Positions 694 to 14,383 of a DNA stretch of 64,000 bases are shown here, one piece after another. The notes beneath the pieces are model-generated. The model ran no database searches. It saw only the letters and a program-made list of their open reading frames with translations, and was not told where the DNA came from. Made by a program: the position numbers and the translations under genes. The first letter of the stretch is position 1, and each line of letters begins with the position of its first letter. Source of the DNA: Yoonia sp. (lineage in GTDB: Bacteria > Pseudomonadota > Alphaproteobacteria > Rhodobacterales > Rhodobacteraceae); NCBI RefSeq assembly GCF_014859355.1, contig NZ_JACUUJ010000011.1:1-64000 (forward strand), in the 5' to 3' direction.

Positions 694-1398
694 ATGGGTG
701 AAATCTGGCAGGGACTGGTTGCGGGGTTATGGCTTGTCGTGACGATGGACGCTGACCTTGTGAATATCACGCTGCGGTCCTTGCAGGTCACACTGTCGGC
801 GGTGGTCATTGCTTCGGCGATCGGGCTGCCATTCGGGGCGTGGCTGGCGATCCGGCGGTTCCGGCACCGGCGCACGACGATTGCCCTGCTCAACGCGCTG
901 ATGGGGCTGCCGCCGGTGGTGGTGGGGCTGGTGGTCTACCTGCTGTTGTCCCGTTCGGGGCCGTTCGGGGTGTTTGGCTTGCTGTTCACCCCCACGGCCA
1001 TGATCATTGCGCAGGTGATCATTATCACGCCACTGATTGCGTCAATCGCGCATCAAGCGGTTCGCGACTTATGGGCGGAATATCATGACCTTCTGCTGTC
1101 TTTTTCAACGACGAAAAGGCAGCGGATCATGACCCTGCTGTGGGATGGGCGGCGGGCGCTGATGACGGCATCGCTGGCCGGATTTGGCCGTGCGATCGGC
1201 GAGGTTGGCGCGATCATGATCGTTGGCGGCAATATCGATAACGCCACCCGCGTGCTGACCACGGCCATCGCGCTGGAAACCGGCAAGGGCGATTTTGCGC
1301 TGGCACTTGGCCTGGGGTTTGTGCTGATCGGACTGGCGATTGCCGTCAACATCGCAACCCACATGATTGGCCGCACCGAAAGCGAGGGCAAATGGTGA
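694..1398 (+). CDS. tupB: Tungstate ABC transporter permease TupB
   Basis: This 234-residue inner-membrane permease has about five to six hydrophobic segments. The cytoplasmic coupling region contains GRAIGEVGAIMIVGGNI, the EAA-type loop typical of TupB/WtpB and related molybdate and tungstate permeases. The end overlaps the ATPase gene by 7 bp, and the substrate-binding gene follows, so this is a three-gene operon. The tungstate (rather than molybdate) assignment rests mainly on the TupA-type binding protein at 2105. The start is an ATG 4 nt after a stop-containing TGAC; no strong Shine-Dalgarno sequence is seen. Confidence 0.88.
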   Translation: MGEIWQGLVAGLWLVVTMDADLVNITLRSLQVTLSAVVIASAIGLPFGAWLAIRRFRHRRTTIALLNALMGLPPVVVGLVVYLLLSRSGPFGVFGLLFTPTAMIIAQVIIITPLIASIAHQAVRDLWAEYHDLLLSFSTTKRQRIMTLLWDGRRALMTASLAGFGRAIGEVGAIMIVGGNIDNATRVLTTAIALETGKGDFALALGLGFVLIGLAIAVNIATHMIGRTESEGKW

Positions 1399-2108
1399 AG
1401 CCGATCCTGCCGCTGACAATGAAAGGCGGCGTTATCAAACGGCGTGGCAAGATCCTGCTGGGGCCGGTGGATTTTACCGTGTCCGCGCAGGGATTCACGA
1501 TTGTGATGGGGCCGAACGGGGCGGGCAAGACAACGCTGCTGCGCGCCTTGCACGGGTTGGAAAAACTGGCAGCGGGGCGGGTGGACTGGCAGGTGCCGGT
1601 AGCTGACACGCTGCAAAGGCAGGCGTTCGTCTTTCAGACCCCGATCATGCTGCGCCGGTCGGTGCGCGACAATCTGGCCTATCCGCTGATCCTGCATGGT
1701 ATGCCCAAGGCGCAGGCCCATGCGATGGCCGCCGACTGGGCCGCGCGAGTCGGGCTGGGGGCGGCGCTGGACCAACAGGCGCCGCGCCTGTCGGGCGGTG
1801 AAAAACAGAAGCTTGCCTTGGCCCGCGCGCTGATGCGCAACCCCGATATCGTATTTCTGGACGAACCCTGCGCCAGTCTGGACGGCCGCGCCACCCGTGA
1901 GATTGAAACGATCTTGAAAACGGCGCAGGCGGATGGCACACGTATACTTATGTCCACCCATGACATTGGGCAGGCAAAACGTCTGGCCAGTGATATCGTG
2001 TTTCTGATGCATGGCCAAATCATTGAAACGGCGCAGGCGCAGGCATTTTTCAATGCGCCCAAAACGCGGCAAGCCGCGGCATTACTCAAGGGAGAGATCG
2101 TAGAATGA
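1392..2108 (+). CDS. tupC: Tungstate ABC transporter ATP-binding protein TupC
   Basis: A 238-residue ABC ATPase that powers oxyanion import through TupB. Walker A GPNGAGKTT is at residues 40-48, the ABC signature LSGGEKQ at 133-139, Walker B IVFLDEP at 153-159, and the switch histidine is in MSTHD. It overlaps tupB by 7 bp and tupA by 4 bp (ATGA), consistent with coupled translation. It lacks the C-terminal MOP/TOBE domain found in ModC, which fits the compact Tup family. Confidence 0.88.
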   Translation: MVKPILPLTMKGGVIKRRGKILLGPVDFTVSAQGFTIVMGPNGAGKTTLLRALHGLEKLAAGRVDWQVPVADTLQRQAFVFQTPIMLRRSVRDNLAYPLILHGMPKAQAHAMAADWAARVGLGAALDQQAPRLSGGEKQKLALARALMRNPDIVFLDEPCASLDGRATREIETILKTAQADGTRILMSTHDIGQAKRLASDIVFLMHGQIIETAQAQAFFNAPKTRQAAALLKGEIVE

Positions 2109-2902
2109 AGCATATTCTGGCACTGGTTCTGGGGCTGGCGGGCAGTATGGCCGCAGCCGAAGACATGAAAATGGCGGTAACAACGTCGTTCAACAATTCG
2201 GGACTGGCGGAAATACTGCTGCCCGCGATCGCCGAGGATACGGGCATCAACGTGCAACTGCTGGTCGTGGGCACAGGACAGGCGCTGCGTTTGGGTGAGG
2301 GCGGTGATGTCGATGCGGTTCTTGTGCATGCGCGTGCCGCCGAAGAGGCGTTTGTCGAAGCAGGCTACGGCACCCACCGTCGCGAAATCATGTACAACGA
2401 TTTCGTCTATATCGGGCCGTCGGATGACCCCGCCGCCATTGCGCAGGCTGATACAGCCGCCGACGTGCTGGTGCGGATTGCGCAGACAGAATCGGTTTTT
2501 GTCAGCCGTGGCGATGACAGCGGTACCCACAAAAAGGAACTCTCGCTGTGGGATACGGCCGGTGTCCAGCGTGGCGGCGACTGGTATCGGCCTGTTGGCG
2601 CAGGCATGGGGGCATCGCTGAACACGGCGGCAGGCATGAACGCCTATATTCTGGCCGACCGGGCAAGCTGGCTGAATTTTGGCAACAAGGGCGATCTTGC
2701 ACTGCTGTTTGCGGGCGATCCGGTGTTGTTCAACCAATACGCCTATCTTCCTGTGAACCCCGAACGCCACCCCCACGTAAAGACCGATCTTGTGGTGCAA
2801 CTGGAAGAATGGCTGACATCACCGCGTGCGGCGGAGCTGATCAACGGCTACACGATCAACGGTGAGACCTTGTTCACCTATAATGCGCAGCCTGAGTCGT
2901 AA
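2105..2902 (+). CDS. tupA: Tungstate-binding periplasmic protein TupA
   Basis: A 265-residue periplasmic solute-binding protein with an N-terminal signal peptide (MKHILALVLGLAGSMAAAE, likely cleaved after AAA). TTSFNNSGL near the mature N-terminus, VGTGQAL, VDAVLVHA and MYNDFVYIGP are hallmarks of the TupA family, which binds tungstate with high selectivity over molybdate. The gene closes the tupBCA operon and sits between an SOS gene and a formate dehydrogenase region, suggesting that it supplies W (or Mo) to that enzyme. Metal selectivity cannot be proven from sequence alone. Confidence 0.9.
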   Translation: MKHILALVLGLAGSMAAAEDMKMAVTTSFNNSGLAEILLPAIAEDTGINVQLLVVGTGQALRLGEGGDVDAVLVHARAAEEAFVEAGYGTHRREIMYNDFVYIGPSDDPAAIAQADTAADVLVRIAQTESVFVSRGDDSGTHKKELSLWDTAGVQRGGDWYRPVGAGMGASLNTAAGMNAYILADRASWLNFGNKGDLALLFAGDPVLFNQYAYLPVNPERHPHVKTDLVVQLEEWLTSPRAAELINGYTINGETLFTYNAQPES

Positions 2903-2950: not shown

Positions 2951-3454
2951 TCAATGTTGATGCGGCTCGTCGTCCAGCGACCCGTGGATCGCGAATTGGT
3001 CCAGCCCGGCACCCTGGGGTTCAATGCTGCGATACCCTTCGCGCACACCCGCACCTGTTAATTCCCGTGATACCATCAGCAGCGTGTTGGGTGCCTGCCC
3101 GTCACACAGGTCGATCATATGCGCGATTTCATCCGCCGCCACACCGCGCGCGGCATCGACCGAAGGCGCCCCGTAATGGCTGACAAAATGCGCCGCCAGC
3201 GCATCGGTCAGCGCCGCAATCTCGGCCGGTTCGACCTTGGTCACCGCCACGACGGAAACCCGCCCGAATGTTTCCAGCCCCAGCCAGCCATTGCTGAACG
3301 CCTGTTTCGCCTTACCTGACAGATCGCCTTCGGACCAGTTGGAAAATTCGAATCCTCCCGAGATGCACCATTCGCCCGTGCGCGCGGGCGCGTGAAAGAT
3401 GTTCATGTCGCTGTCGTCGAAATGGATGGCGCGGGCCAGGTATTGGTCGGTCAT
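2951..3454 (-). CDS. DUF6505-like protein in formate dehydrogenase region
   Basis: A 167-residue protein starting MTDQYLARAIHFDDSD; I chose the ATG at 3454 because it overlaps the upstream stop as ATGA, whereas the longer ORF start would reach 61 bp into the previous gene. It has no signal peptide or membrane segment. The pattern (DMNIFHAPARTGEWCISGGFEF, FSNGWLGLETFGR) fits a small conserved family I recall as DUF6505 from Rhodobacterales formate dehydrogenase clusters. Function is unknown. It is the last gene of the minus-strand block and its stop abuts the palindrome at 2909-2950. The family name is from memory. Confidence 0.65.
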   Translation of the reverse strand: MTDQYLARAIHFDDSDMNIFHAPARTGEWCISGGFEFSNWSEGDLSGKAKQAFSNGWLGLETFGRVSVVAVTKVEPAEIAALTDALAAHFVSHYGAPSVDAARGVAADEIAHMIDLCDGQAPNTLLMVSRELTGAGVREGYRSIEPQGAGLDQFAIHGSLDDEPHQH

Positions 3455-4125
3455 GATTGCCCTAACAAAGTGGTTAACGGGATCAATGTGGTGGTTGGGC
3501 CGCTGCGGCACAACTGGCCGAAATCCTGATCAAGGCCGATGAAATCCCCCTGACCCAGCCCATACATCAATCCCTGCAGTTCGGCATGCAGCGGCTTTGC
3601 GCCTTCATCGTCCCAGCGGTTGATCCAGACCAGCGTGTGCCGCGCCCAGCTTTCCAGCAGATTCACCGGGTCCACCTCGGCGCAGCCTTCGGCATAAAGC
3701 GCTGTTTCATCGGGGGTTTGCCCCGGATCGTCGGATGCGGGCCACAGTTGCAGGTGCAGCCCGATGATCAGCCAGTCCGGCACTGCCGCCGGATCACGCC
3801 CCGACGCACGCGGTTTCAGCCGACCGCAAATACCCCCGTTCAGCCGGATCGCACCGTTCCAATCCAAATGCACGGCGACTTCGGGCGGGGCTGTGGCGCC
3901 CAAGGCGTTCTGAAACCCGATGCCGCAGGCGGGCAGCATCGCCATGGCCTGCGCCAGTGGCACCTCGGGGGCAAAGATAATGGCCGCGCGCAGGTCATTG
4001 CCGGTCAGGTTATACACAACCGTGCCCGCGTCGCAGCCGTCTGACGCCATTGCCACCGCGACCGCCAGCGGATCATCCACCGTGGCCACGCCGGTCAGCA
4101 GCGGCGGAAACACCGGTGCTGTCAT
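3451..4125 (-). CDS. Biotin/lipoate protein ligase-like protein (DUF4444-type)
   Basis: A 224-residue cytoplasmic protein resembling the BPL_LplA_LipB fold variant found in alphaproteobacteria: an N-terminal FPPLLTG...DDPLAVA region, a central AVHLDWNGAIRLNGG that is the likely equivalent of the W-P-N/D ligase core, and a C-terminal DUF4444-like tail (GEFIGLDQDFG-type ending, here GDFIGLDQDFGQL). It overlaps both neighbours by 4 bp, so it is co-translated with the Mrp ATPase and the DUF6505-like gene. No lipoylated partner is encoded nearby, so its substrate in a formate dehydrogenase cluster is unclear. Ligase activity is not established from this sequence. Confidence 0.7.
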   Translation of the reverse strand: MTAPVFPPLLTGVATVDDPLAVAVAMASDGCDAGTVVYNLTGNDLRAAIIFAPEVPLAQAMAMLPACGIGFQNALGATAPPEVAVHLDWNGAIRLNGGICGRLKPRASGRDPAAVPDWLIIGLHLQLWPASDDPGQTPDETALYAEGCAEVDPVNLLESWARHTLVWINRWDDEGAKPLHAELQGLMYGLGQGDFIGLDQDFGQLCRSGPTTTLIPLTTLLGQS

Positions 4126-5189
4126 GCGTTGCCGCCTGCGATCAGGTCGCGCGCCACCTGGCGGAACGCCTGCGCGGCGGCACTGTCGGGTTTCGACACC
4201 ACGATCGGCGCGCCCCCGTCGGCGGCCAGCCGGATATCCAGTTGCAGCGGCAATTCAGCCAGCAGTGGCACGCCCAGTTTTGCCGCCTCTGCCGCGACCC
4301 CGCCGTGACCAAATGTATGTTCCTCGTGGCCGCAGTTTGAACAGATATGCGTGCTCATGTTTTCGATCATGCCGATAATCGGCGTGCCCAACTGGTTGAA
4401 CATGTCGATCCCCTTGCGCGCGTCGATCAGCGCGACATCTTGCGGGGTGGATACGATGACCGCACCGGTCACGTCGAATTTCTGTGTCAGGGTCATCTGC
4501 ACATCGCCTGTGCCCGGCGGCAGATCGACGATCAAAACATCCAGCGCGCCCCATTGCACCTGATTCATCATCTGCTGCAGCGCCCCCATCAGCATCGGAC
4601 CGCGCCAGACGACCGCCTGATCGTCGTTCTGCATCAGCCCGATCGACATCATCGTCACACCGTGGTTGCGCATCGGCAGGATCGTCTTGCCATCGGGTGA
4701 AGCGGGCCGCCCCGACACGCCCAGCATACGCGGCTGTGACGGGCCGTAGACATCGGCATCCAGCAGGCCGACGCGCCGCCCTTCGGCGGCCAGCGCGCAG
4801 GCCAGATTGGCGGATACGGTGGATTTTCCCACGCCGCCCTTGCCGGATGCAACGGCGATGATCCGGTCAACGCCCGGCACCTTTTGCGGGCCCTTGGGTT
4901 CTGCGCTGCGTTGCGGTTTCAGATCGGGCGGGGCGGCGGGTGTGCTGTGGGCGGTCATGATCGCCGACACGGTGCCGATGCCATCCAGCGCCTTTAGCGC
5001 GGTCTCGGCTGCGGCGCGCACGGGTTCCATCTGGCTGGCCATGGATGGCGCGACTTCGAACACGAAACGCACGTTGCCGCCGTCCACGTTCAGGGCGCGC
5101 ACCAGTCCGGCGGCCATGATGTCATCACCCGAAACAGGGTCTGTGATCGTTTTCAGGGTCGCAATGACCGCATCGCGGGTGATGCTCAC
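4122..5189 (-). CDS. mrp: Mrp/NBP35-type P-loop ATPase, Fe-S carrier
   Basis: A 355-residue cytoplasmic protein. Residues 1-80 form a MIP18/DUF59-type domain (DPVSGDDI). The deviant Walker A SGKGGVGKST lies at 115-124, DADVYGPSQPRM is the Mrp signature at 145-155, VDLPPGTGD is at 221-229, and a CSNC metal-binding pair (C283, C286) follows. The family (Mrp/ApbC/Ind1) carries or transfers [4Fe-4S] clusters. The start is GTG, immediately after the upstream TGA. In this operon it may load clusters onto the HdrA-like protein or onto formate dehydrogenase; that partner choice is an inference. Confidence 0.88.
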   Translation of the reverse strand: MSITRDAVIATLKTITDPVSGDDIMAAGLVRALNVDGGNVRFVFEVAPSMASQMEPVRAAAETALKALDGIGTVSAIMTAHSTPAAPPDLKPQRSAEPKGPQKVPGVDRIIAVASGKGGVGKSTVSANLACALAAEGRRVGLLDADVYGPSQPRMLGVSGRPASPDGKTILPMRNHGVTMMSIGLMQNDDQAVVWRGPMLMGALQQMMNQVQWGALDVLIVDLPPGTGDVQMTLTQKFDVTGAVIVSTPQDVALIDARKGIDMFNQLGTPIIGMIENMSTHICSNCGHEEHTFGHGGVAAEAAKLGVPLLAELPLQLDIRLAADGGAPIVVSKPDSAAAQAFRQVARDLIAGGNA

Positions 5190-5420: not shown

Positions 5421-7388
5421 TCAGTGATCCTTGCGCTTTGACAGATAGTCATCGGATGTGCGCACACGCGGGCGTTCTGCCCCTGCGAAGGGGTTGTTCT
5501 GGGAATGATACTGCGCCTGTATGCGGCAATTGTCGCACATCTGGATCATCCGCACCGTGTCGGGGTTGGCAAACATCGCGTGTTTGCCGGCCAGCTTTTC
5601 GGTGATCTTTTCGATGGTGGATTTCACGCCGAACAGGCTGCCACATTCGACGCAGGCAAAGGGTTCTTCCTCGTGCAGCACCTGCTGGGCAAAGGCGGCA
5701 TCTGTCAGGTTCAACTGCGGTTGCAGGGTGATCGCCTTTTCAGGGCAGATATTGCTGCATAGCCCGCATTGCAGGCAGGCGTCTTCCTGAAACCGCAGTT
5801 GCGGGCGGTCTTCGTTATCGATCAGCGCGCCCGACGGGCAGAGCGAGACACATGACAGGCACAGCGTGCAGGCATCGGTATCGACCAGCACCGCGCCATA
5901 GGGGGCGGTGTCGGGCAGGGGGATCACATCGGCGTCGGTTAGCGCCTTGGCGGCGGTGCGGGCGACCTGCCGCCGCGTGCCCATGGGCAGCATCGGCGTG
6001 GCGATGGCCTGTGCGTCGCTGCCCTGAAACAGCAGATCAGACAACGCGTCGGGGTCGGCCATGTCCAGCAGGCGGATCGTGCGGGCGCTGATCGCCTGCG
6101 CCAGCGCGGTTTCACGGTCAATCGTGTCGCGGTCGGATTTGGGCGACAGCAGGACATCGACGCAGGCAAACCCTGCACCAAGTGCAGCGAGCATTTCGGC
6201 GTGGCCGAACCCCGCCAGTGCCGTCACCTCTAGCGGGATGACATCGGCGGGCAGGCCGTTGCCGTAGCGGGCGGCAAGCTGGATCATCTCGATGCCGTGG
6301 GTATCATCGTGGACCAGCAGGCGGGGGTTGATGCCACCGGCCTTGCGAAAGGTTTCTGCCAGCGTCTGGATGCGGCGAAAGACATGATCGACCGGCGGCG
6401 CGTCATAGGTGATTGCGCCCGACGGGCACAGCGCGGAACAGGCCCCACAGCCTGCACAGATCATCGGATCAATCGCCACCGTATCCCCGGCTGACGTTAT
6501 TGCACCGGTGGGGCAGGCGTTCAGGCAGTTTGAACAGGCGGGCTGTTCGGCCCGTGAATGGGCGCAAAGTGCCGGTTCCAGCCGCACATACAGCGGCTTT
6601 TCAAAGGTGCCGACCATTTGCGCGGCCGCAAACACTGCATCGGCCACTGATGGAGCATGCCGTGGGTCGGCGCGCAGATAGCCGTCCCGCTTTTCATGGG
6701 CGGAAAACAGCGGGGTATCACCCGTCAGGTCAAGAATGATATCGCATTGCGATTTCGCCCCGTCACGCGCCGCGCCGAACTGCGGCTGCCCGCGCCCGCC
6801 GGGTTCGAGGGCCTGCACCGCGTCAATGCGCAGGTTGAAATTGCCAAAGCTGCCGCTGGCCTGCGTCAGGCGCCCCCGGATGATGTCAAAGCCGCCTGTC
6901 ACCGGTGGCGCTGAGTCATCTGTCAACAAGAGCGTAACGCTCAGCGTATCTTGGAGTTTCCGCGCCGCCGCGACTGCGACTTCGCCCGCGCCGATAATCA
7001 GGCAGACGCCATCGGATGTCACATCGCGCACTTTCGGTTCTGCGGGGCGCAATGCTGCCTCTGCGGCAAGGGCGGCCATCTTGGGTGCCTGCGACAATTT
7101 GTCAGCCGACCATCCGGCCCGATCACGCAGATCGACGAAAACGGGTAAATCTGCCCCGATTTCGGCGGCAATTTCGGCAAAACGGGCCTGTTCCTGACCG
7201 CAGGCAATTATGACGTTGCCCGCAGCGATCGCCTTGGTGGCCAGATCGCTTTGTTGTGTACATAAATTTGTGTGGAGCTTGGAACATTTCAGCCCGGTGA
7301 CATCTTCGATTTTCGTCGTATCAATTGACTGACTTCCCAGACAATCACATAATATCAACTGCTTAGCGGTATCTGACGAAGATGACAT
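5421..7388 (-). CDS. HdrA-like multi-[4Fe-4S] protein of the formate dehydrogenase region
   Basis: A 655-residue cytoplasmic protein. I use the ATG at 7388 because GGAG lies 8 nt upstream; the track's start at 7778 would cross the divergent promoter. Residues 1-120 resemble the HdrA N-terminal domain (CDC at 14-16, C43, VIIACG). Residues 127-160 are a Rossmann-like GAGEVA segment, degenerate compared with HdrA's FAD motif. Ferredoxin-like clusters follow at C275/C285/C288/C292 and C311-C321. Residues 350-415 resemble an MvhD/FlpD-type domain. Two full CX2CX2CX3CP motifs are at C507-C517 and C538-C548. CxxC pairs at 579/582 and 618/621 end the protein. It probably relays electrons; partners are unknown. 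Confidence 0.82.
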   Translation of the reverse strand: MSSSSDTAKQLILCDCLGSQSIDTTKIEDVTGLKCSKLHTNLCTQQSDLATKAIAAGNVIIACGQEQARFAEIAAEIGADLPVFVDLRDRAGWSADKLSQAPKMAALAAEAALRPAEPKVRDVTSDGVCLIIGAGEVAVAAARKLQDTLSVTLLLTDDSAPPVTGGFDIIRGRLTQASGSFGNFNLRIDAVQALEPGGRGQPQFGAARDGAKSQCDIILDLTGDTPLFSAHEKRDGYLRADPRHAPSVADAVFAAAQMVGTFEKPLYVRLEPALCAHSRAEQPACSNCLNACPTGAITSAGDTVAIDPMICAGCGACSALCPSGAITYDAPPVDHVFRRIQTLAETFRKAGGINPRLLVHDDTHGIEMIQLAARYGNGLPADVIPLEVTALAGFGHAEMLAALGAGFACVDVLLSPKSDRDTIDRETALAQAISARTIRLLDMADPDALSDLLFQGSDAQAIATPMLPMGTRRQVARTAAKALTDADVIPLPDTAPYGAVLVDTDACTLCLSCVSLCPSGALIDNEDRPQLRFQEDACLQCGLCSNICPEKAITLQPQLNLTDAAFAQQVLHEEEPFACVECGSLFGVKSTIEKITEKLAGKHAMFANPDTVRMIQMCDNCRIQAQYHSQNNPFAGAERPRVRTSDDYLSKRKDH

Positions 7389-7607: not shown

Positions 7608-8141
7608 ATGCCTGTGGGTGTTGTCGTGCAGCGACGCCCTGGCGTGACGCGTTGGGCCAAGTGGGCATGGAAAGTCACGGCTGTTTTGCCCGGTGCGGCA
7701 CAGGCTGACTGGGCGGTTTTGCGCGATACAGGTGATGTGGCCGAATACCACGCCGCCACCCGCCCCCTGGAACTGCACGGTGCCGAATCAGAATCCTATA
7801 TGGCCGGTCTTTCCGCGAAAATGCCCGCGCTTTATGTCGTGATGCGCCGCCGCGATGATGCGCTGCGCCCGTTTGACGTGGTCTTGGTCACAGCTTCGCC
7901 TTATGAAGCGCAGGATTATATGGATAACGGTGAGGACATCGTCGAAAAGGTCGCGATGCCGGACGGGGTGATCGGCTGGGTGCGCGAATTTACCGACCGG
8001 TTTTTCGAAGAAGAAGTGTTTATCAAGCGCCGCCGTGACAAGCAGCGCGTTGATGGTGTGCAGGACGGGATCGGCGACAGACGTATCGCGCAGCTGACGG
8101 ATGTGTATCGCGCGCCGCAGCGCAAGGGGTCGGCGGTATGA
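7608..8141 (+). CDS. DUF3305 family protein
   Basis: A 177-residue soluble protein starting MPVGVVVQRRPGVTRWAKWAWKV, the characteristic DUF3305 N-terminus; the upstream ORF extension (from 7497) lacks this character and is rejected. Arg- and Lys-rich at the C-terminus (FIKRRRDKQ). The family is found almost only next to formate dehydrogenase and DUF3306 genes in proteobacteria; its biochemical role is unknown. It overlaps the DUF3306 gene by 4 bp (ATGA) and opens the plus-strand fdh operon. Confidence 0.85.
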   Translation: MPVGVVVQRRPGVTRWAKWAWKVTAVLPGAAQADWAVLRDTGDVAEYHAATRPLELHGAESESYMAGLSAKMPALYVVMRRRDDALRPFDVVLVTASPYEAQDYMDNGEDIVEKVAMPDGVIGWVREFTDRFFEEEVFIKRRRDKQRVDGVQDGIGDRRIAQLTDVYRAPQRKGSAV

Positions 8142-8704
8142 ATGTATCGCAAACCGATTTCTGGTCGCGCCGCAAGGCAAAGGTCGCACAAGAGGCCGAA
8201 GCCGAAGAGGTTGTGCAGGACCTGCCGCAGGAAGATCTGACAGATGCGGAAATTCTGGCGAAATTCGATTTGCCTGATCCCGAAAGCCTGAAACTGGGTG
8301 ATGATATCAAGGGCTTTATGTCCAGGGCCGTGCCCGAACATCTGCGCCGCCGCGCCCTGCGAAAGCTGTGGCGCACCAATCCGGTGCTGGCCTGTTTGGA
8401 CGGTTTGAACGACTACGAAGACGATTTCACCGATGCCGCGACGGTCATGCCGGGCATGAAAACCGCATATCAGGTTGGCAAGGGTATGTTGGCCCACCTG
8501 CAGGATGTTGCGCAAAAGGCCGATGAACTGCTGGCGGCCGATGATCACGGCGTTGATCTGGATCAGGTTGAAAAGGTGCAAGATATGCCGTCATCGGACG
8601 ATGAACCGACAGTGGTGGCAAAGGCCGATGCGGCCACCGCTGAAACGCCGCAGCCTGTTGTCCGCCGGATGCGTTTTGAATTTGAACAGGATGCCACATC
8701 ATGA
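8138..8704 (+). CDS. DUF3306 family protein
   Basis: A 188-residue protein with the DUF3306 hallmark FWSRRKAKV near the N-terminus and PEHLRRRALRKLWRTNP in the middle, followed by an acidic, low-complexity tail. It has no signal peptide or membrane helix. It is always paired with DUF3305 in formate dehydrogenase loci, and here it overlaps both DUF3305 and the chaperone gene by 4 bp. A role in assembly or electron transfer to the enzyme is likely but unproven. Confidence 0.85.
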   Translation: MNVSQTDFWSRRKAKVAQEAEAEEVVQDLPQEDLTDAEILAKFDLPDPESLKLGDDIKGFMSRAVPEHLRRRALRKLWRTNPVLACLDGLNDYEDDFTDAATVMPGMKTAYQVGKGMLAHLQDVAQKADELLAADDHGVDLDQVEKVQDMPSSDDEPTVVAKADAATAETPQPVVRRMRFEFEQDATS

Positions 8705-9312
8705 CTGCGATGCCCGACATTGATCCGGTCACCCCCGAAGACCGTCTGCGGGCGGATCTTTATAATTATCTCGGGCTGATGCTGTCAGGGCCACCCGATG
8801 AAATGCTGCTGGTGCAAACGGCCGATCTTCATGGCGATGACAGCGCGCTGGGTCAGGCGATCACGCAGCTGGCGCGGGTGGCAAGGGTCTGCAAGCCAAA
8901 GGCGGTGCGCAGTGAATACAATGCGCTGTTCATCGGGCTTGGCAGGGGTGAATTGCTACCTTTTGCCAGCTATTATCTGACGGGTTTCCTGAATGAAAAA
9001 CCGCTTGCCGCCTTGCGTGCCGACATGGCGGCGCGGGGCATCGGGCGTGCGCCCAACGTGTTTGAACCCGAAGACAACATCGCGTCGCTGATGGAAATGA
9101 TGGGCGGAATGATCGTGGGCCGCTTTGCCGGCCCGCCAGCGGATCTGCAAACGCAGAAAGCATTTTTCAACAAACATATCGGATCATGGGCCGGACATTT
9201 TTTCAGCGATCTGGAAGCTGCGAAAAATTCGGTTCTTTATGCCTCGGTCGGGGCGGTGGGCCGGAATATGATGGACATCGAACGCGAGGCGTTTCGCATG
9301 ATTGCGGAGTAA
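8701..9312 (+). CDS. TorD/DmsD-family molybdoenzyme chaperone
   Basis: A 203-residue all-helical cytoplasmic protein. The core SEYNALFIGLGRGELLPFASYYLTG corresponds to the family motif E-Y-x2-L-F followed by G-x-P/L-x-P/F-x-S-x-Y. Members bind Tat signal peptides of molybdenum or tungsten enzymes and hold them back until the cofactor is inserted. The obvious clients are FdhA (Tat signal at its N-terminus) and possibly the tiny Tat protein next door. ATGA overlap with DUF3306. Confidence 0.87.
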   Translation: MTAMPDIDPVTPEDRLRADLYNYLGLMLSGPPDEMLLVQTADLHGDDSALGQAITQLARVARVCKPKAVRSEYNALFIGLGRGELLPFASYYLTGFLNEKPLAALRADMAARGIGRAPNVFEPEDNIASLMEMMGGMIVGRFAGPPADLQTQKAFFNKHIGSWAGHFFSDLEAAKNSVLYASVGAVGRNMMDIEREAFRMIAE

Positions 9313-9626: not shown

Positions 9627-12500
9627 ATGTTAAAGAAAAAAACCAATGGGGTCGCACGGCGCGCAAGCATCGACACACCGACCGCAAAAGGTACTGTTGA
9701 CCGCCGCACATTTCTGCGCGGTTCTGGTCTGACCATCGGCGGGTTGACCGCGATTGCCGCAACTGGCGGCACCGTCACGGCGGCAAATGCGCAGGCCGTC
9801 GATAGCGCGGTTCAGACGATCAAATCGGTCTGCACCCATTGTTCGGTCGGTTGCACCGTGGTGGCAGAGGTCCGCAACGGCGTCTGGACGGGGCAGGAAC
9901 CCGGCTGGGACAGCCCGTTCAACCTTGGCGCCCATTGCGCCAAAGGCGCGGCAGTGCGGGAACACGCGCACGGCGAACGCCGCCTGAAATACCCGATGAA
10001 GAAAGAAAACGGCGAATGGGTGCGCATCAGCTGGGAACAGGCGATTGACGAAATCGGCGACCAGATGATGCAGATCCGCGACGAAAGCGGCCCAGACAGC
10101 GTTTATTGGCTTGGCTCGGCCAAGCATAACAACGAACAGGCCTATCTGTTCCGCAAGTTTGCCTCTTATTGGGGCACTAATAACGTGGACCATCAGGCGC
10201 GGATTTGTCATTCGACCACTGTTGCGGGTGTGGCGAACACATGGGGCTATGGCGCCATGACCAACAGCTACAACGACATGCACAAGTCCAAGGCGATTTT
10301 CCTGATCGGTGGCAACCCCGCCGAGGCGCACCCTGTGTCGCTGCTGCATATGCTGAAAGCCAAGGAAGAAAACAACGCCCCGCTGATCGTCTGCGATCCG
10401 CGCTTTACCCGCACGGCAGCCCATGCGGACGAATACGTGCGTTTCCGGCCTGGTTCTGACGTAGCGCTGGTTTGGGGGATTCTGTGGCACATTTTTGAAA
10501 ACCGCTGGGAAGATGCGGAATTCATCCGCACCCGTGTCTGGGGCATGGACCAGATCCGCGACGAGGTTAAAAAATGGACCCCCGAGGAAGTGGAGCGCGT
10601 CACCGGCGCGCCGGGTGAACAACTGCGCCGCGTGGCCTTTACGCTGGCCAACAACCGCCCCGGCACTTTGATCTGGTGTATGGGCGGCACGCAGCACTCG
10701 AACGGCAACAACAACACCCGCGCCTATTGCATACTGCAACTCGCGCTGGGGAATGTCGGTGTCGCCGGTGGTGGCACCAATATTTTCCGTGGGCACGACA
10801 ACGTGCAGGGCGCAACCGACCTTGGGGTGCTGGCTGATACGCTGCCCGGATATTATGGTTTGGCCCCCGGCGCATGGGCGCATTGGGCGCGTGTCTGGGA
10901 AGAAGACCTTGACTGGCTCAAGGGGCGTTTTTCTGATGCGTCTTACGGCGACACCTCGATGATGAACCTGAACGGGATCACGGTCAGCCGCTGGATTGAT
11001 GGCGTGCTGGAAGACAAGGAAAACATCGACCAGCCAGACAACACCCGCGCCATGGTGCTGTGGGGGCATGCGCCCAACAGCCAGACCCGGCAAAAGGAAA
11101 TGAAGACGGCGATGGAAAAGCTCGACCTTTTGGTCGTGGTTGATCCATACCCGACCGTGTCTGCCGTGTTGCAGGACCGCACCGATGGTGTGTATCTGCT
11201 GCCCGCTTGCACGCAGTTCGAAACGCGCGGGTCCGTCACCGCATCCAACCGGTCGCTGCAATGGCGCGACAAGGTGGTGGAACCGCTGTTTGAATCGCTG
11301 CCCGATCACACGATCATGGCAAAGTTTTCGGAAAAATTCGGCTTCCACGACAGGATCTTCCGCAACATCGCGATTGATGAGGGCGGAGAGCCGAACATCG
11401 AGGACATCACCCGCGAATTCAACCGCGGCATGTGGACCATCGGCTATACCGGCCAAAGCCCGGAGCGGCTGAAGCTGCATATGGCCAACCAGCACACATT
11501 CGACCGCACGACGTTGCGCGCAGTGGGTGGCCCTGCTGACGGTGATACCTACGGTCTGCCTTGGCCTTGCTGGGGTACAGCGGAAATGAACCATCCCGGG
11601 TCTGCGAACCTTTATGACATGTCGATCCCTGTGGCGCAGGGTGGCATGGGTTTTCGCGCCCGTTTCGGGGTTGAACGCGACGGTGACAATCTGCTGGCTG
11701 AAGGGGTTTACCCTGTCGGGTCCGAAATTCAGGACGGATACCCTGAATTCACCATGCAGATGCTGATGGATCTGGGATGGGATGGTGACCTGACGGCGGA
11801 TGAACGCGCTGCGATCGACGCGGTGGGCGGCCCAACCGCCAACTGGAAAACCGACCTGTCGGGCGGGATCCAGCGTGTTGCGATCAAACATGGCTGCGCC
11901 CCTTACGGCAACGCCAAGGCCCGCACAGTCGTGTGGACCTTCCCCGATCCGGTGCCGCTGCACCGCGAACCCCTGTATAGCAACCGCCGCGATCTGGTGG
12001 CCGATTATCCCACCTATGAGGACCGCAAATTCTGGCGTGTGCCAACACTTTACAAATCGATCCAGGAAAACGATTTTTCGCAAGAATATCCGATCATCCT
12101 GACATCGGGGCGTCTGGTGGAATACGAAGGTGGCGGCGATGAAACCCGGTCAAACCCTTGGCTGGCCGAATTGCAGCAGGACATGTTCGTTGAAATCAAC
12201 ATCCGCGACGCCAACAACCTTGGTGTGCGTGACGGCGCACAGGTCTGGGTCGAAGGCCCCGAAGGCGGAAAGGTCAAGGTGATGGCAATGGTGACCGAAC
12301 GGGTGGGCAGTGGCGTGGCCTTCATGCCTTTCCACTTTGGTGGGCACCTTGAAGGTGTTGATTTGCGGCACAAATACCCCGACGGCGCTGACCCCTATGT
12401 CTTGGGCGAAAGCACCAACACCGCACAAACCTATGGCTATGATTCAGTGACCCAGATGCAAGAGACCAAAGCGACTCTTTGCAAAATCTGGGCAGCGTAA
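9627..12500 (+). CDS. fdhA: Periplasmic formate dehydrogenase catalytic subunit (Mo/W-bis-MGD)
   Basis: A 957-residue member of the formate dehydrogenase-N/O family. It has a Tat signal (DRRTFLRGSG, residues 25-34), so it is exported folded. Cysteines C69, C72, C76 and C104 bind the proximal [4Fe-4S] cluster. RICHST places the metal ligand as cysteine (C194) followed by the conserved histidine, so it is a Cys rather than selenocysteine enzyme. The molybdopterin guanine dinucleotide folds follow, and a dinucleotide-binding domain ends the protein. It oxidises formate to CO2 and passes electrons to FdhB. The neighbouring tungstate importer suggests W use. Confidence 0.93.
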   Translation: MLKKKTNGVARRASIDTPTAKGTVDRRTFLRGSGLTIGGLTAIAATGGTVTAANAQAVDSAVQTIKSVCTHCSVGCTVVAEVRNGVWTGQEPGWDSPFNLGAHCAKGAAVREHAHGERRLKYPMKKENGEWVRISWEQAIDEIGDQMMQIRDESGPDSVYWLGSAKHNNEQAYLFRKFASYWGTNNVDHQARICHSTTVAGVANTWGYGAMTNSYNDMHKSKAIFLIGGNPAEAHPVSLLHMLKAKEENNAPLIVCDPRFTRTAAHADEYVRFRPGSDVALVWGILWHIFENRWEDAEFIRTRVWGMDQIRDEVKKWTPEEVERVTGAPGEQLRRVAFTLANNRPGTLIWCMGGTQHSNGNNNTRAYCILQLALGNVGVAGGGTNIFRGHDNVQGATDLGVLADTLPGYYGLAPGAWAHWARVWEEDLDWLKGRFSDASYGDTSMMNLNGITVSRWIDGVLEDKENIDQPDNTRAMVLWGHAPNSQTRQKEMKTAMEKLDLLVVVDPYPTVSAVLQDRTDGVYLLPACTQFETRGSVTASNRSLQWRDKVVEPLFESLPDHTIMAKFSEKFGFHDRIFRNIAIDEGGEPNIEDITREFNRGMWTIGYTGQSPERLKLHMANQHTFDRTTLRAVGGPADGDTYGLPWPCWGTAEMNHPGSANLYDMSIPVAQGGMGFRARFGVERDGDNLLAEGVYPVGSEIQDGYPEFTMQMLMDLGWDGDLTADERAAIDAVGGPTANWKTDLSGGIQRVAIKHGCAPYGNAKARTVVWTFPDPVPLHREPLYSNRRDLVADYPTYEDRKFWRVPTLYKSIQENDFSQEYPIILTSGRLVEYEGGGDETRSNPWLAELQQDMFVEINIRDANNLGVRDGAQVWVEGPEGGKVKVMAMVTERVGSGVAFMPFHFGGHLEGVDLRHKYPDGADPYVLGESTNTAQTYGYDSVTQMQETKATLCKIWAA

Positions 12501-12513
12501 GGAGACCAATAAG

Positions 12514-13107
12514 ATGGCAAGAGCAAAGTTTCTCGTCGATGCCGAACGCTGCATTGAATGCAATGCCTGCGTGACAGCGTGTAAAAACGAACACGAAGTG
12601 CCTTGGGGCATTAACCGCCGCAAGGTGGTGACGATCAATGACGGCAAGCCGGGCGAACGCTCGATTTCGGTCGCTTGCATGCATTGTTCCGATGCGCCCT
12701 GTATGGCGGTCTGCCCGGTCGATTGCTTTTATCAGAACGAAGAAGGGATCGTGCTGCACTCCAAGGATCTGTGCATCGGGTGTGGCTACTGTTTTTATGC
12801 GTGCCCCTTTGGTGCGCCGCAGTATCCGCAGGCTGGCAACTTCGGGTCACGCGGCAAGATGGACAAATGCACCTTCTGCGCCGGTGGCCCCGAGGAAAAC
12901 CACAGCCAGGCTGAGTTCCAGAAATACGGCCGCAACCGGATCGCCGAAGGCAAACTGCCGATCTGTGCGGAAATGTGCGCGACCAAGGCCCTGCTGGCCG
13001 GTGACGGTGCCGAAGTGTCGGACATCTACCGCGAACGGGTGGTTGCCCGTGGTTTCGGGTCCGGCGCATGGGGCTGGGGCACGGCCTATCAGATGAAGGC
13101 CCAGTAA
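12514..13107 (+). CDS. fdhB: Formate dehydrogenase iron-sulfur (beta) subunit
   Basis: A 197-residue protein with sixteen cysteines arranged for four [4Fe-4S] clusters: C13/16/19/23, C55/58/63/67, C87/90/93/97 and C119/122/151/155. It wires FdhA to the cytochrome b subunit in the periplasm. It has no Tat or Sec signal, so it is expected to be exported in complex with FdhA. Unlike FdnH/FdoH it lacks a C-terminal membrane helix, as in FdhB of shorter periplasmic enzymes. It lies 13 bp after fdhA. Confidence 0.92.
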   Translation: MARAKFLVDAERCIECNACVTACKNEHEVPWGINRRKVVTINDGKPGERSISVACMHCSDAPCMAVCPVDCFYQNEEGIVLHSKDLCIGCGYCFYACPFGAPQYPQAGNFGSRGKMDKCTFCAGGPEENHSQAEFQKYGRNRIAEGKLPICAEMCATKALLAGDGAEVSDIYRERVVARGFGSGAWGWGTAYQMKAQ

Positions 13108-13180: not shown

Positions 13181-14383
13181 ATGCTCCGCCTGATCGCCAC
13201 TTGCCTGTTCTGCTTCATTGCCGCCGCTGCCCCCGCGCAAGACCGCGCGCCAAATGACAGCACCGTCTTGACCAACCCGGCGGTGTCGGGCCTAGAGGAT
13301 ATTTTGCGCCGTCAGCAAGCGTTGAAAACCGCCGATGGCGCAGAACGTGCCACCCAAATCGGTGATCCCGCTGTTGCATCACCCGAAACGGATCAACTGG
13401 GCACGCTTGGCGGTGCATCCGATGCCGACCTGTGGCGCGCCTATCGGTTCAATGCGGCCGATATCTACACACAGTCACGGGGTCCGGCCAGCACGACGCT
13501 GATCCAGGACAGCGGCATGTGGTGGCTGGCAGTCCGCGAAGGACCACTGGCCACTTATGGCGCATGGCTTTTGGTCGGCACGATCGGCCTGCTGGCGCTG
13601 TTCTATCTGTTGCGCGGGCGGGTGCGGATCGATGGCGAAAAGACAGGCCGCACGATCACGCGTTTCAAATCCTTTGAACGGTTCGGTCACTGGCTATTGG
13701 CGGGGTCGTTCGTTGTTCTGGGGATCACCGGGTTGATTTCGCTGTTTGGACGCAAGGTGATGATCCCGTTGTTCGGGCATGATAGTTTTTCTATCCTCGC
13801 GATTGCGTCGAAATGGGTGCACAACAACATTTCATGGGCCTTCATGATCGCGCTTGTATTGATCTTTTTCATGTGGGTGCTGGAAAACATCCCCAATCGG
13901 CTGGATCTGAAATGGATCGCCGTGGGCGGCGGGCTGTTCAAAAAGGGCGTGCACCCGCCCGCCAAGAAATTCAATGCCGGCCAAAAGGTGATATTCTGGT
14001 CGGTAATCGTGCTAGGCACCTCGATTTCGGTGTCGGGGCTGGCGCTGCTGTTTCCGTTCGAACTGCCGATGTTCGGGAAAACCTTTGGGGTGCTCAACGC
14101 GACCGGGCTGCCGGAACTGATGGGACTGGGTGTGCTGCCGACCCAACTGACCCCGCACGCGGAAATGCAGTTTTCGCAGCTCTGGCATGCCATCATGGGG
14201 TTCGTCCTGATGGCGATCATTCTGGCGCATATCTATATCGGGTCGGTTGGCATGGAAGGCGCGTTTGATGCCATGGGGTCCGGCGAGGTCGAAGAGCAAT
14301 GGGCGCGCGAACACCACAGCCTGTGGGTGGACGAGGTGAAGGCGAAAGAGACGTCTACCGCCGCAGCCACGCCAGCTGAATAA
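13181..14383 (+). CDS. fdhC: Formate dehydrogenase cytochrome b subunit (gamma)
   Basis: A 400-residue membrane protein. A cleavable signal peptide (MLRLIATCLFCFIAAAAPAQ) precedes a ~100-residue periplasmic domain, then about five membrane helices. Histidines in FGHWLL, KWVHNN, LWHAIM and LAHIYI are placed to bind two b hemes, as in FdnI-type subunits. It passes electrons from FdhB to quinone. The extended N-terminal periplasmic domain distinguishes the alphaproteobacterial and epsilonproteobacterial form from the shorter E. coli FdnI. It ends in an Ala-rich tail. Confidence 0.9.
   Translation: MLRLIATCLFCFIAAAAPAQDRAPNDSTVLTNPAVSGLEDILRRQQALKTADGAERATQIGDPAVASPETDQLGTLGGASDADLWRAYRFNAADIYTQSRGPASTTLIQDSGMWWLAVREGPLATYGAWLLVGTIGLLALFYLLRGRVRIDGEKTGRTITRFKSFERFGHWLLAGSFVVLGITGLISLFGRKVMIPLFGHDSFSILAIASKWVHNNISWAFMIALVLIFFMWVLENIPNRLDLKWIAVGGGLFKKGVHPPAKKFNAGQKVIFWSVIVLGTSISVSGLALLFPFELPMFGKTFGVLNATGLPELMGLGVLPTQLTPHAEMQFSQLWHAIMGFVLMAIILAHIYIGSVGMEGAFDAMGSGEVEEQWAREHHSLWVDEVKAKETSTAAATPAE

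Follow-up and report, generated by a model that had tools for sequence, protein, structure and literature searches.

What does a protein predicted to stay in the cytoplasm do for a formate dehydrogenase that is exported across the membrane? The question is raised by the window, the whole 64,000-nucleotide stretch of Yoonia sp. DNA analysed here, in which a 655-residue ORF lies divergent from a formate dehydrogenase gene cluster. The ORF had been placed at positions 5421-7388 in a preliminary description made from the DNA letters, and it is present exactly there, conserved and well modelled. Orthologues with 59-73% identity span its full length, so it is not a chance ORF, and its cluster-binding cysteines are practically invariant in family alignments of 29 and 91 members, which argues that the gene is under selection. 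In public plasmid records, the gene is annotated only as encoding a '4Fe-4S binding protein'. Literature searches returned no experiment on the family and no paper giving its domains or function, and searches on fitness data or on an HdrA-like protein with a periplasmic formate dehydrogenase returned no study of this gene. The parts recognized in the gene are as follows.

5421..7388, (-) strand: whole gene, from an ATG at 7388 to a stop at 5421, encoding a predicted flavin-less composite (HdrA-MvhD-HycF) iron-sulfur protein of 655 aa
7035..7388, (-) strand: residues 1-118, HdrA N-terminal Fe-S domain with C14, C16, C43 and C63
6573..7034, (-) strand: residues 119-272, truncated remnant of the HdrA thioredoxin-reductase (Rossmann) domain, without FAD motifs
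6414..6566, (-) strand: residues 275-325, HdrA-type C-terminal ferredoxin with two clusters, the first motif being C-x9-CxxCxxxCP
5979..6383, (-) strand: residues 336-470, MvhD/FlpD-like fold without conserved cysteines
5721..5894, (-) strand: residues 499-556, 2[4Fe-4S] ferredoxin of the HycF/NuoI type
5508..5669, (-) strand: residues 574-627, HycF-like Cys quartet C579/C582/C618/C621, a putative single-metal site

Pfam recognizes only ferredoxin-type Fe-S domains in the protein, Pfam and NCBIfam give no match beyond the ferredoxins over the N-terminal, Rossmann and MvhD-like regions, and a viral fold library gave no match. Sub-threshold NCBIfam matches, to HdrA over residues 247-345 and to the formate hydrogenlyase iron-sulfur subunit model PRK12387 over residues 503-628, hint at two origins. 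An AlphaFold2 model built with the 91-sequence alignment as input has a pLDDT of 93.9 and a pTM of 0.89, and the best Foldseek matches of this model in the PDB are HdrA chains (8rvy_A, E 7.5e-12; 5odc_A, 9.5e-10), followed by HycF (7z0s_F, E 3.1e-6, probability 1.00) and, lower down, by the MvhD-type subunit 8rvu_F (probability 0.99, TMt 0.59). All three matches are strengthened by a second model, of the homologue L149 (pLDDT 91.6), with an E-value of 7.8e-15 for HdrA and TMt values of 0.75 for HycF and 0.73 for MvhD (5odh_D). Owing to a different domain arrangement, TM-scores against HdrA as a whole are only 0.2-0.3, and the HdrA fold matches therefore count only as local, co-linear similarity. 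Three architectures are found in the family: full length, in Alphaproteobacteria and others; full length with an inserted ferredoxin, in the betaproteobacterial type; and a form without the HdrA N-terminal domain, which is missing from all gammaproteobacterial-type loci and a few others. Lineage labels outside the Alphaproteobacteria, given as '-type', are our own reading and hence provisional.

Plain HMM searches over residues 1-160 and 350-415, the check proposed in the preliminary description, find neither HdrA nor MvhD, but the more sensitive profile-profile and structure comparisons do, and an hmmsearch of the N-terminal family profile against PDB chains gave no match; the relation to both proteins is thus remote. 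Family sub-alignments were compared by hhalign with segments of solved HdrA and MvhD chains, with 60 column shuffles, reversed templates and cross-pairs as controls. The N-terminal domain matches HdrA 1-139 with a probability of 69.6% and a score of 32.8 (at most 4.7% in 60 shuffles), pairing CxC with CxC, LC with MC, AC with AC and NIRE with NIRE, so that C14, C16, C43 and C63 are all aligned; none of these four varies among the members that possess the domain. For the Rossmann part, the probability is 59.6% and the score 30.1, and for residues 336-470 against MvhD they are 48.7% and 29.6; the 60-shuffle maxima were 20.4 (N-terminal), 16.8 (Rossmann) and 16.0 (MvhD), with reversed templates at or below 12.7 and cross-pairs at or below 15.0. 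The HdrA-type N-terminus of the preliminary description is thereby borne out by a specific profile match and by the best fold match, although Pfam and NCBIfam are silent on it. In betaproteobacterial-type members such as L141, L143, L144 and L149, a ferredoxin (CxxCxxCxxxCPE ... CxxHxxCxxxC) is inserted directly after GxxGxF, the same place as in HdrA, which makes true HdrA descent hard to doubt; this insert is absent from the window protein.

The flavin site itself has been lost. HdrA 551-649 aligns with residues 242-340, a span that includes the C-terminal two-cluster ferredoxin typical of HdrA, and HdrA up to about residue 345 aligns with the residues before 242, the latter alignment being weak alone. 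About 200 HdrA residues (approximately 346-550) have no counterpart, among them the region of E356 and K409, which are reported to stabilise FAD (PMC12054007), and the HdrA segment GGRMxQL..FPTxDCSxCIL is also missing. None of the 91 aligned members has GxGxxG, 14 have GxGxx[A/G], and at the loop position only the first glycine, G133, is kept. The loop GAGEVA, to which the preliminary description had drawn attention, is present in the window protein but is not a conserved feature of the family; its further suggestion, that the FAD site is lost and the reaction differs from that of classical HdrA, agrees with these data. With the FAD-stabilising pair deleted and GxGxxG absent, classical flavin bifurcation by this protein is very unlikely.

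The four [4Fe-4S] motifs previously listed are practically invariant, with the correction that the first is irregular, C275-x9-C285-x2-C288-x3-C292-P. At the position of residue 314, in the second motif, one cysteine is replaced by A, V or I in eight gammaproteobacterial-type members that lack the N-terminal domain (L146-L148 and L150-L154); these proteins may therefore have a [3Fe-4S] cluster there or have lost the cluster. The MvhD-like region, which is borne out by its fold and by a co-linear profile similarity specific against the controls, extends over approximately residues 346-470 rather than the 350-415 first proposed, and it lacks the MvhD cluster cysteines, its single invariant residue being one glycine (alignment A5). 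The FlpD profile PF02662 matches none of 29 members and nothing in the genome.

It is the C-terminus that proved most informative. The family profile aligns residues 512-634 with HycF 36-162 (E 3.1e-14) across both terminal CxxC pairs. The preliminary description had noted these pairs, conserved without exception in all 91 members, and had missed both their equivalence to the HycF Cys quartet and the HycF-like module as a whole. Their spacing is 32-38 residues, mostly 35, and in HycF and its relative HyfH (formate hydrogenlyase subunit 6) a 2[4Fe-4S] ferredoxin is likewise followed by such pairs, as CxxC-x34-CPxC in HycF. In E. coli HycF, the quartet ligates a single metal, tentatively assigned as iron, near the interface with FdhF, and has been proposed to tune FdhF binding through a redox-dependent partner affinity (PMC9474812). 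Residue 584, equivalent by eye to HycF Arg122, is S in the window protein, whereas 54 of the 91 members have K or R there. Unlike HycF, the window protein is fused to a large HdrA/MvhD part, its partner formate dehydrogenase is exported, and no hydrogenase was noticed in the window cluster. As judged from its modules, the ancestor of the protein was a relay of the HdrA-MvhD type to which a HycF-type module was joined.

The genes that surround it are predominantly of an assembly type.

694..2902, (+) strand: TupB-TupC-TupA-like tungstate ABC transporter, the best TupA and TupB matches being below the equivalog cut-offs
2951..3511, (-) strand: DUF6505 protein
3451..4125, (-) strand: lipoate/biotin ligase-like protein (PF16917)
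4122..5189, (-) strand: Mrp/ApbC-type Fe-S carrier ATPase, just downstream and on the same strand
7608..8141, (+) strand: DUF3305 gene, divergent from the composite gene
8138..8704, (+) strand: DUF3306 gene
8701..9312, (+) strand: TorD/DmsD-type chaperone
9627..12500, (+) strand: FdhA, Tat-exported Mo/W formate dehydrogenase alpha subunit, with a Cys ligand (RICHS) and the Tat signal RRTFLRG
12514..13107, (+) strand: FdhB, FDH3 beta (NF038355, 343 bits, cutoff 240)
13181..14383, (+) strand: FdhC, cytochrome b gamma subunit

The gene is indeed divergent from DUF3305-DUF3306-TorD-FdhABC, and FdhA has a Tat signal. The pairing of a cytoplasmic protein with a periplasmic enzyme, made in the preliminary description, is supported: the composite protein has no signal peptide, consistent with a cytoplasmic location, and FdhA carries a twin-arginine signal in 87 of 89 related loci, the two exceptions being short ORFs. 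DUF3305 matches the NCBIfam MobA-DUF3305 fusion model NF011058 below its cut-off, pointing to a link between this gene set and Mo/W cofactor assembly. Tup-like genes adjoin the cluster here and in about half of the related large-context loci, and the window enzyme may therefore use tungsten.

The partner, described at first as unknown, can be named. In a sample of 289 alphaproteobacterial genomes, 43 have the composite gene and 39 have FDH3_beta over its cut-off, and all of the 39 are carriers (Fisher p about 4e-44), leaving four with the gene and no FDH3-type formate dehydrogenase; the protein is accordingly tied to FDH3. DUF3306 occurs in 41 of these genomes, 40 of them carriers, and DUF6505 in 28, of which 25 are carriers (p 2e-21). 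DUF6505 and the PF16917 ligase-like gene accompany FDH3 well beyond the Rhodobacteraceae and may be additional accessory genes of FDH3; in the sulfur-oxidising sHdr systems, HdrA is likewise accompanied by lipoate ligases. FdhD is present in 51 of 53 carriers tested. FdhE is absent from 43 of 43 alphaproteobacterial and 32 of 33 other carriers (75/76); within the Alphaproteobacteria alone, its absence from carriers is not significant (p = 0.23), and the anti-correlation is suggestive only.

Neighbours in related loci were scored solely for the window's own gene families. All 61 large-context loci have DUF3305 and DUF3306; FdhABC is found in 60, TorD in 59, the lipoate-ligase-like gene in 57, DUF6505 in 56, Mrp in 55 and Tup genes in approximately 30; these loci are the closest relatives, mostly Rhodobacteraceae, so the Mrp, ligase-like and DUF6505 counts are not independent. 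In gammaproteobacterial-type loci, the composite gene is not divergent and lies inside the operon, between DUF3305/3306 and TorD. In four rearranged FDH3 clusters (L102, L104, L107 and L109), it stays together with DUF3305/3306 and the Fdh genes, with varying order and strand. Two short divergent homologues (L155:8285-9829 and L157:8704-10398) adjoin Tat-exported PhsA/ArrA-like molybdoenzymes, not a formate dehydrogenase, and the beta subunits there are DsrO/QrcC/ArrB-like. From these two loci, the partner class would be exported molybdoenzymes rather than formate dehydrogenases alone.

Among characterised proteins, HdrA (the soluble heterodisulfide reductase subunit A; PDB 5odc, 8rvu, 7bkb) shares the N-terminal CxC...C...C domain with its NIRE motif, the first Rossmann unit with GxxGxF, the C-terminal ferredoxin and, in betaproteobacterial-type members, the inserted ferredoxin. 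The window protein differs from HdrA in being about 200 residues shorter, in having no FAD motif, in its fusion to MvhD-like and HycF-like modules, and in that no HdrBC partner was seen in loci scored for the window's families. With MvhD/FlpD, the delta subunit of the methyl-viologen-reducing hydrogenase, it shares the fold and co-linear profile noted above, without a Pfam FlpD match or any conserved MvhD cysteine. NapF is also cytoplasmic, has four [4Fe-4S] motifs and is encoded with a Tat-exported Mo-bis-MGD enzyme, but its architecture differs, and the window protein scores 39.8 bits against the TIGR00402 cut-off of 102.2. FdhE, likewise an accessory to periplasmic formate dehydrogenases, has CxxC-type iron sites; the window protein has no PF04216 (FdhE_N) match, and the FdhE family is also absent from the genome. 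As at least one tested defining feature of each of HdrA, MvhD and NapF is lacking, the protein was filed in none of these families, nor was it filed under HycF, which is defined by its place in a complex I-like hydrogenase, genes for which were not noticed in the window cluster; the protein is a new variant built from known parts. The search for DUF3305/DUF3306 with formate dehydrogenase returned one paper, which gives no function; a DUF3305-DUF3306-dmsD/torD-fdhGHI operon in that paper has a fer4 gene drawn as a 4Fe-4S protein, probably the same gene, for which no domain analysis or function was seen (PMC4464133).

FdhA is exported folded and the composite protein has no signal peptide, so that any direct action on FdhA must precede export. 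NapF, cytoplasmic with four [4Fe-4S] clusters, is reported to be required for reconstitution of the Fe-S cluster in exported NapA (PMC10609526). On this precedent, and with the assembly-type neighbours and the HycF-like C-terminus, we propose that a protein that has lost its FAD motifs, kept its cluster cysteines and clusters with FDH3 and assembly-type genes would act in the cytoplasm before export, and without a flavin, as a factor for the redox and Fe-S maturation of an exported Mo/W enzyme, in this case the FDH3-type formate dehydrogenase (probability about 0.58). The HycF-like C-terminus, with the metal of its Cys quartet, would dock on FdhA before Tat export much as HycF faces FdhF, and the [4Fe-4S] chain would deliver electrons to the [4Fe-4S] cluster and W/Mo-bis-MGD site of FdhA, or would insert or protect them, during sulfuration of the cofactor by FdhD and with the TorD-type chaperone on the Tat signal. 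A cytoplasmic partner would probably be bound by the HdrA N-terminal domain and the MvhD fold, or would supply them with electrons; as the gammaproteobacterial-type members do without the N-terminal domain, not all of this is indispensable. Against maturation, the HdrA/MvhD part exceeds in size what a role like that of NapF requires, the window protein has S at residue 584, and the patterns of co-occurrence and synteny would suit turnover no less than assembly.

The main rival is a working electron-transfer protein bound to FdhC at its cytoplasmic side, or to a pool of FdhAB that is not exported, which would link formate or the quinol pool with an acceptor of low potential in the cytoplasm. 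HdrA, MvhD and HycF are all relay subunits of cytoplasmic-side complexes with a hydrogenase or formate dehydrogenase (PMC9012536, PMC9474812), and HycF itself is a working electron-transfer subunit and not a maturase. We nevertheless regard this role as unlikely: FdhA is destined for export, the divergent homologues adjoin enzymes of the respiratory reductase type, and a dedicated acceptor (HdrBC or a hydrogenase) was not noticed in loci scored for the window's gene families, the only CCG-domain protein of the genome being encoded on another contig, unlinked to the composite gene.

Less likely still, the protein and the neighbouring Mrp ATPase together would donate Fe-S clusters to FdhA and FdhB. 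The annotation of Mrp/ApbC proteins is that of Fe-S cluster carriers, and in 52 of the 61 large-context loci the next scored gene on the strand of the composite gene is Mrp. Nearly all of the loci with Mrp are of the Rhodobacteraceae type, however, and Mrp is mostly not beside the composite gene elsewhere, whether in other alphaproteobacterial loci or in those of the betaproteobacterial and gammaproteobacterial types. The specific Mrp partnership of the preliminary description is thus a lineage feature, and a general one was rejected. Ferredoxin-type clusters bound by CxxCxxCxxxCP motifs, moreover, usually serve in electron transfer and not in donation.

A role in redox sensing or in regulating the fdh operon, with the Cys quartet reporting cellular redox state or iron, would fit the divergent orientation in Rhodobacteraceae-type loci and the redox-dependent affinity proposed for HycF (PMC9474812), but Pfam finds no DNA-binding domain and Foldseek no such fold, and the location within gammaproteobacterial-type operons makes this role highly improbable. 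Least probable is flavin-based bifurcation, in which an HdrA would use electrons from formate to reduce ferredoxin, rejected on the lost FAD site despite the HdrA fold match and the existence of HdrA-MvhD fusions (PMC12054007), there being also no adjacent HdrBC noticed in loci scored for the window's gene families, and a partner enzyme across the membrane.

For formate dehydrogenases, a review discusses FdhD, FdhE and FdhM. As supplier of electrons or Fe-S clusters to these enzymes ahead of Tat export, the composite family provides a specific, testable candidate in many marine and soil Proteobacteria that have FDH3 enzymes, and it may be a missing part for heterologous production of the W/Mo formate dehydrogenases used in CO2 reduction. 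The family also illustrates a route by which a bifurcating protein loses its flavin and is reused. More tentatively, with the odds somewhat against so broad a claim, HdrA/MvhD bifurcation modules that lost their flavin and joined a HycF module may have given rise, in a widespread proteobacterial family, to a dedicated pre-export redox maturase for Mo/W enzymes, which would replace FdhE in the FDH3 class and also serve other Tat-exported molybdoenzymes.
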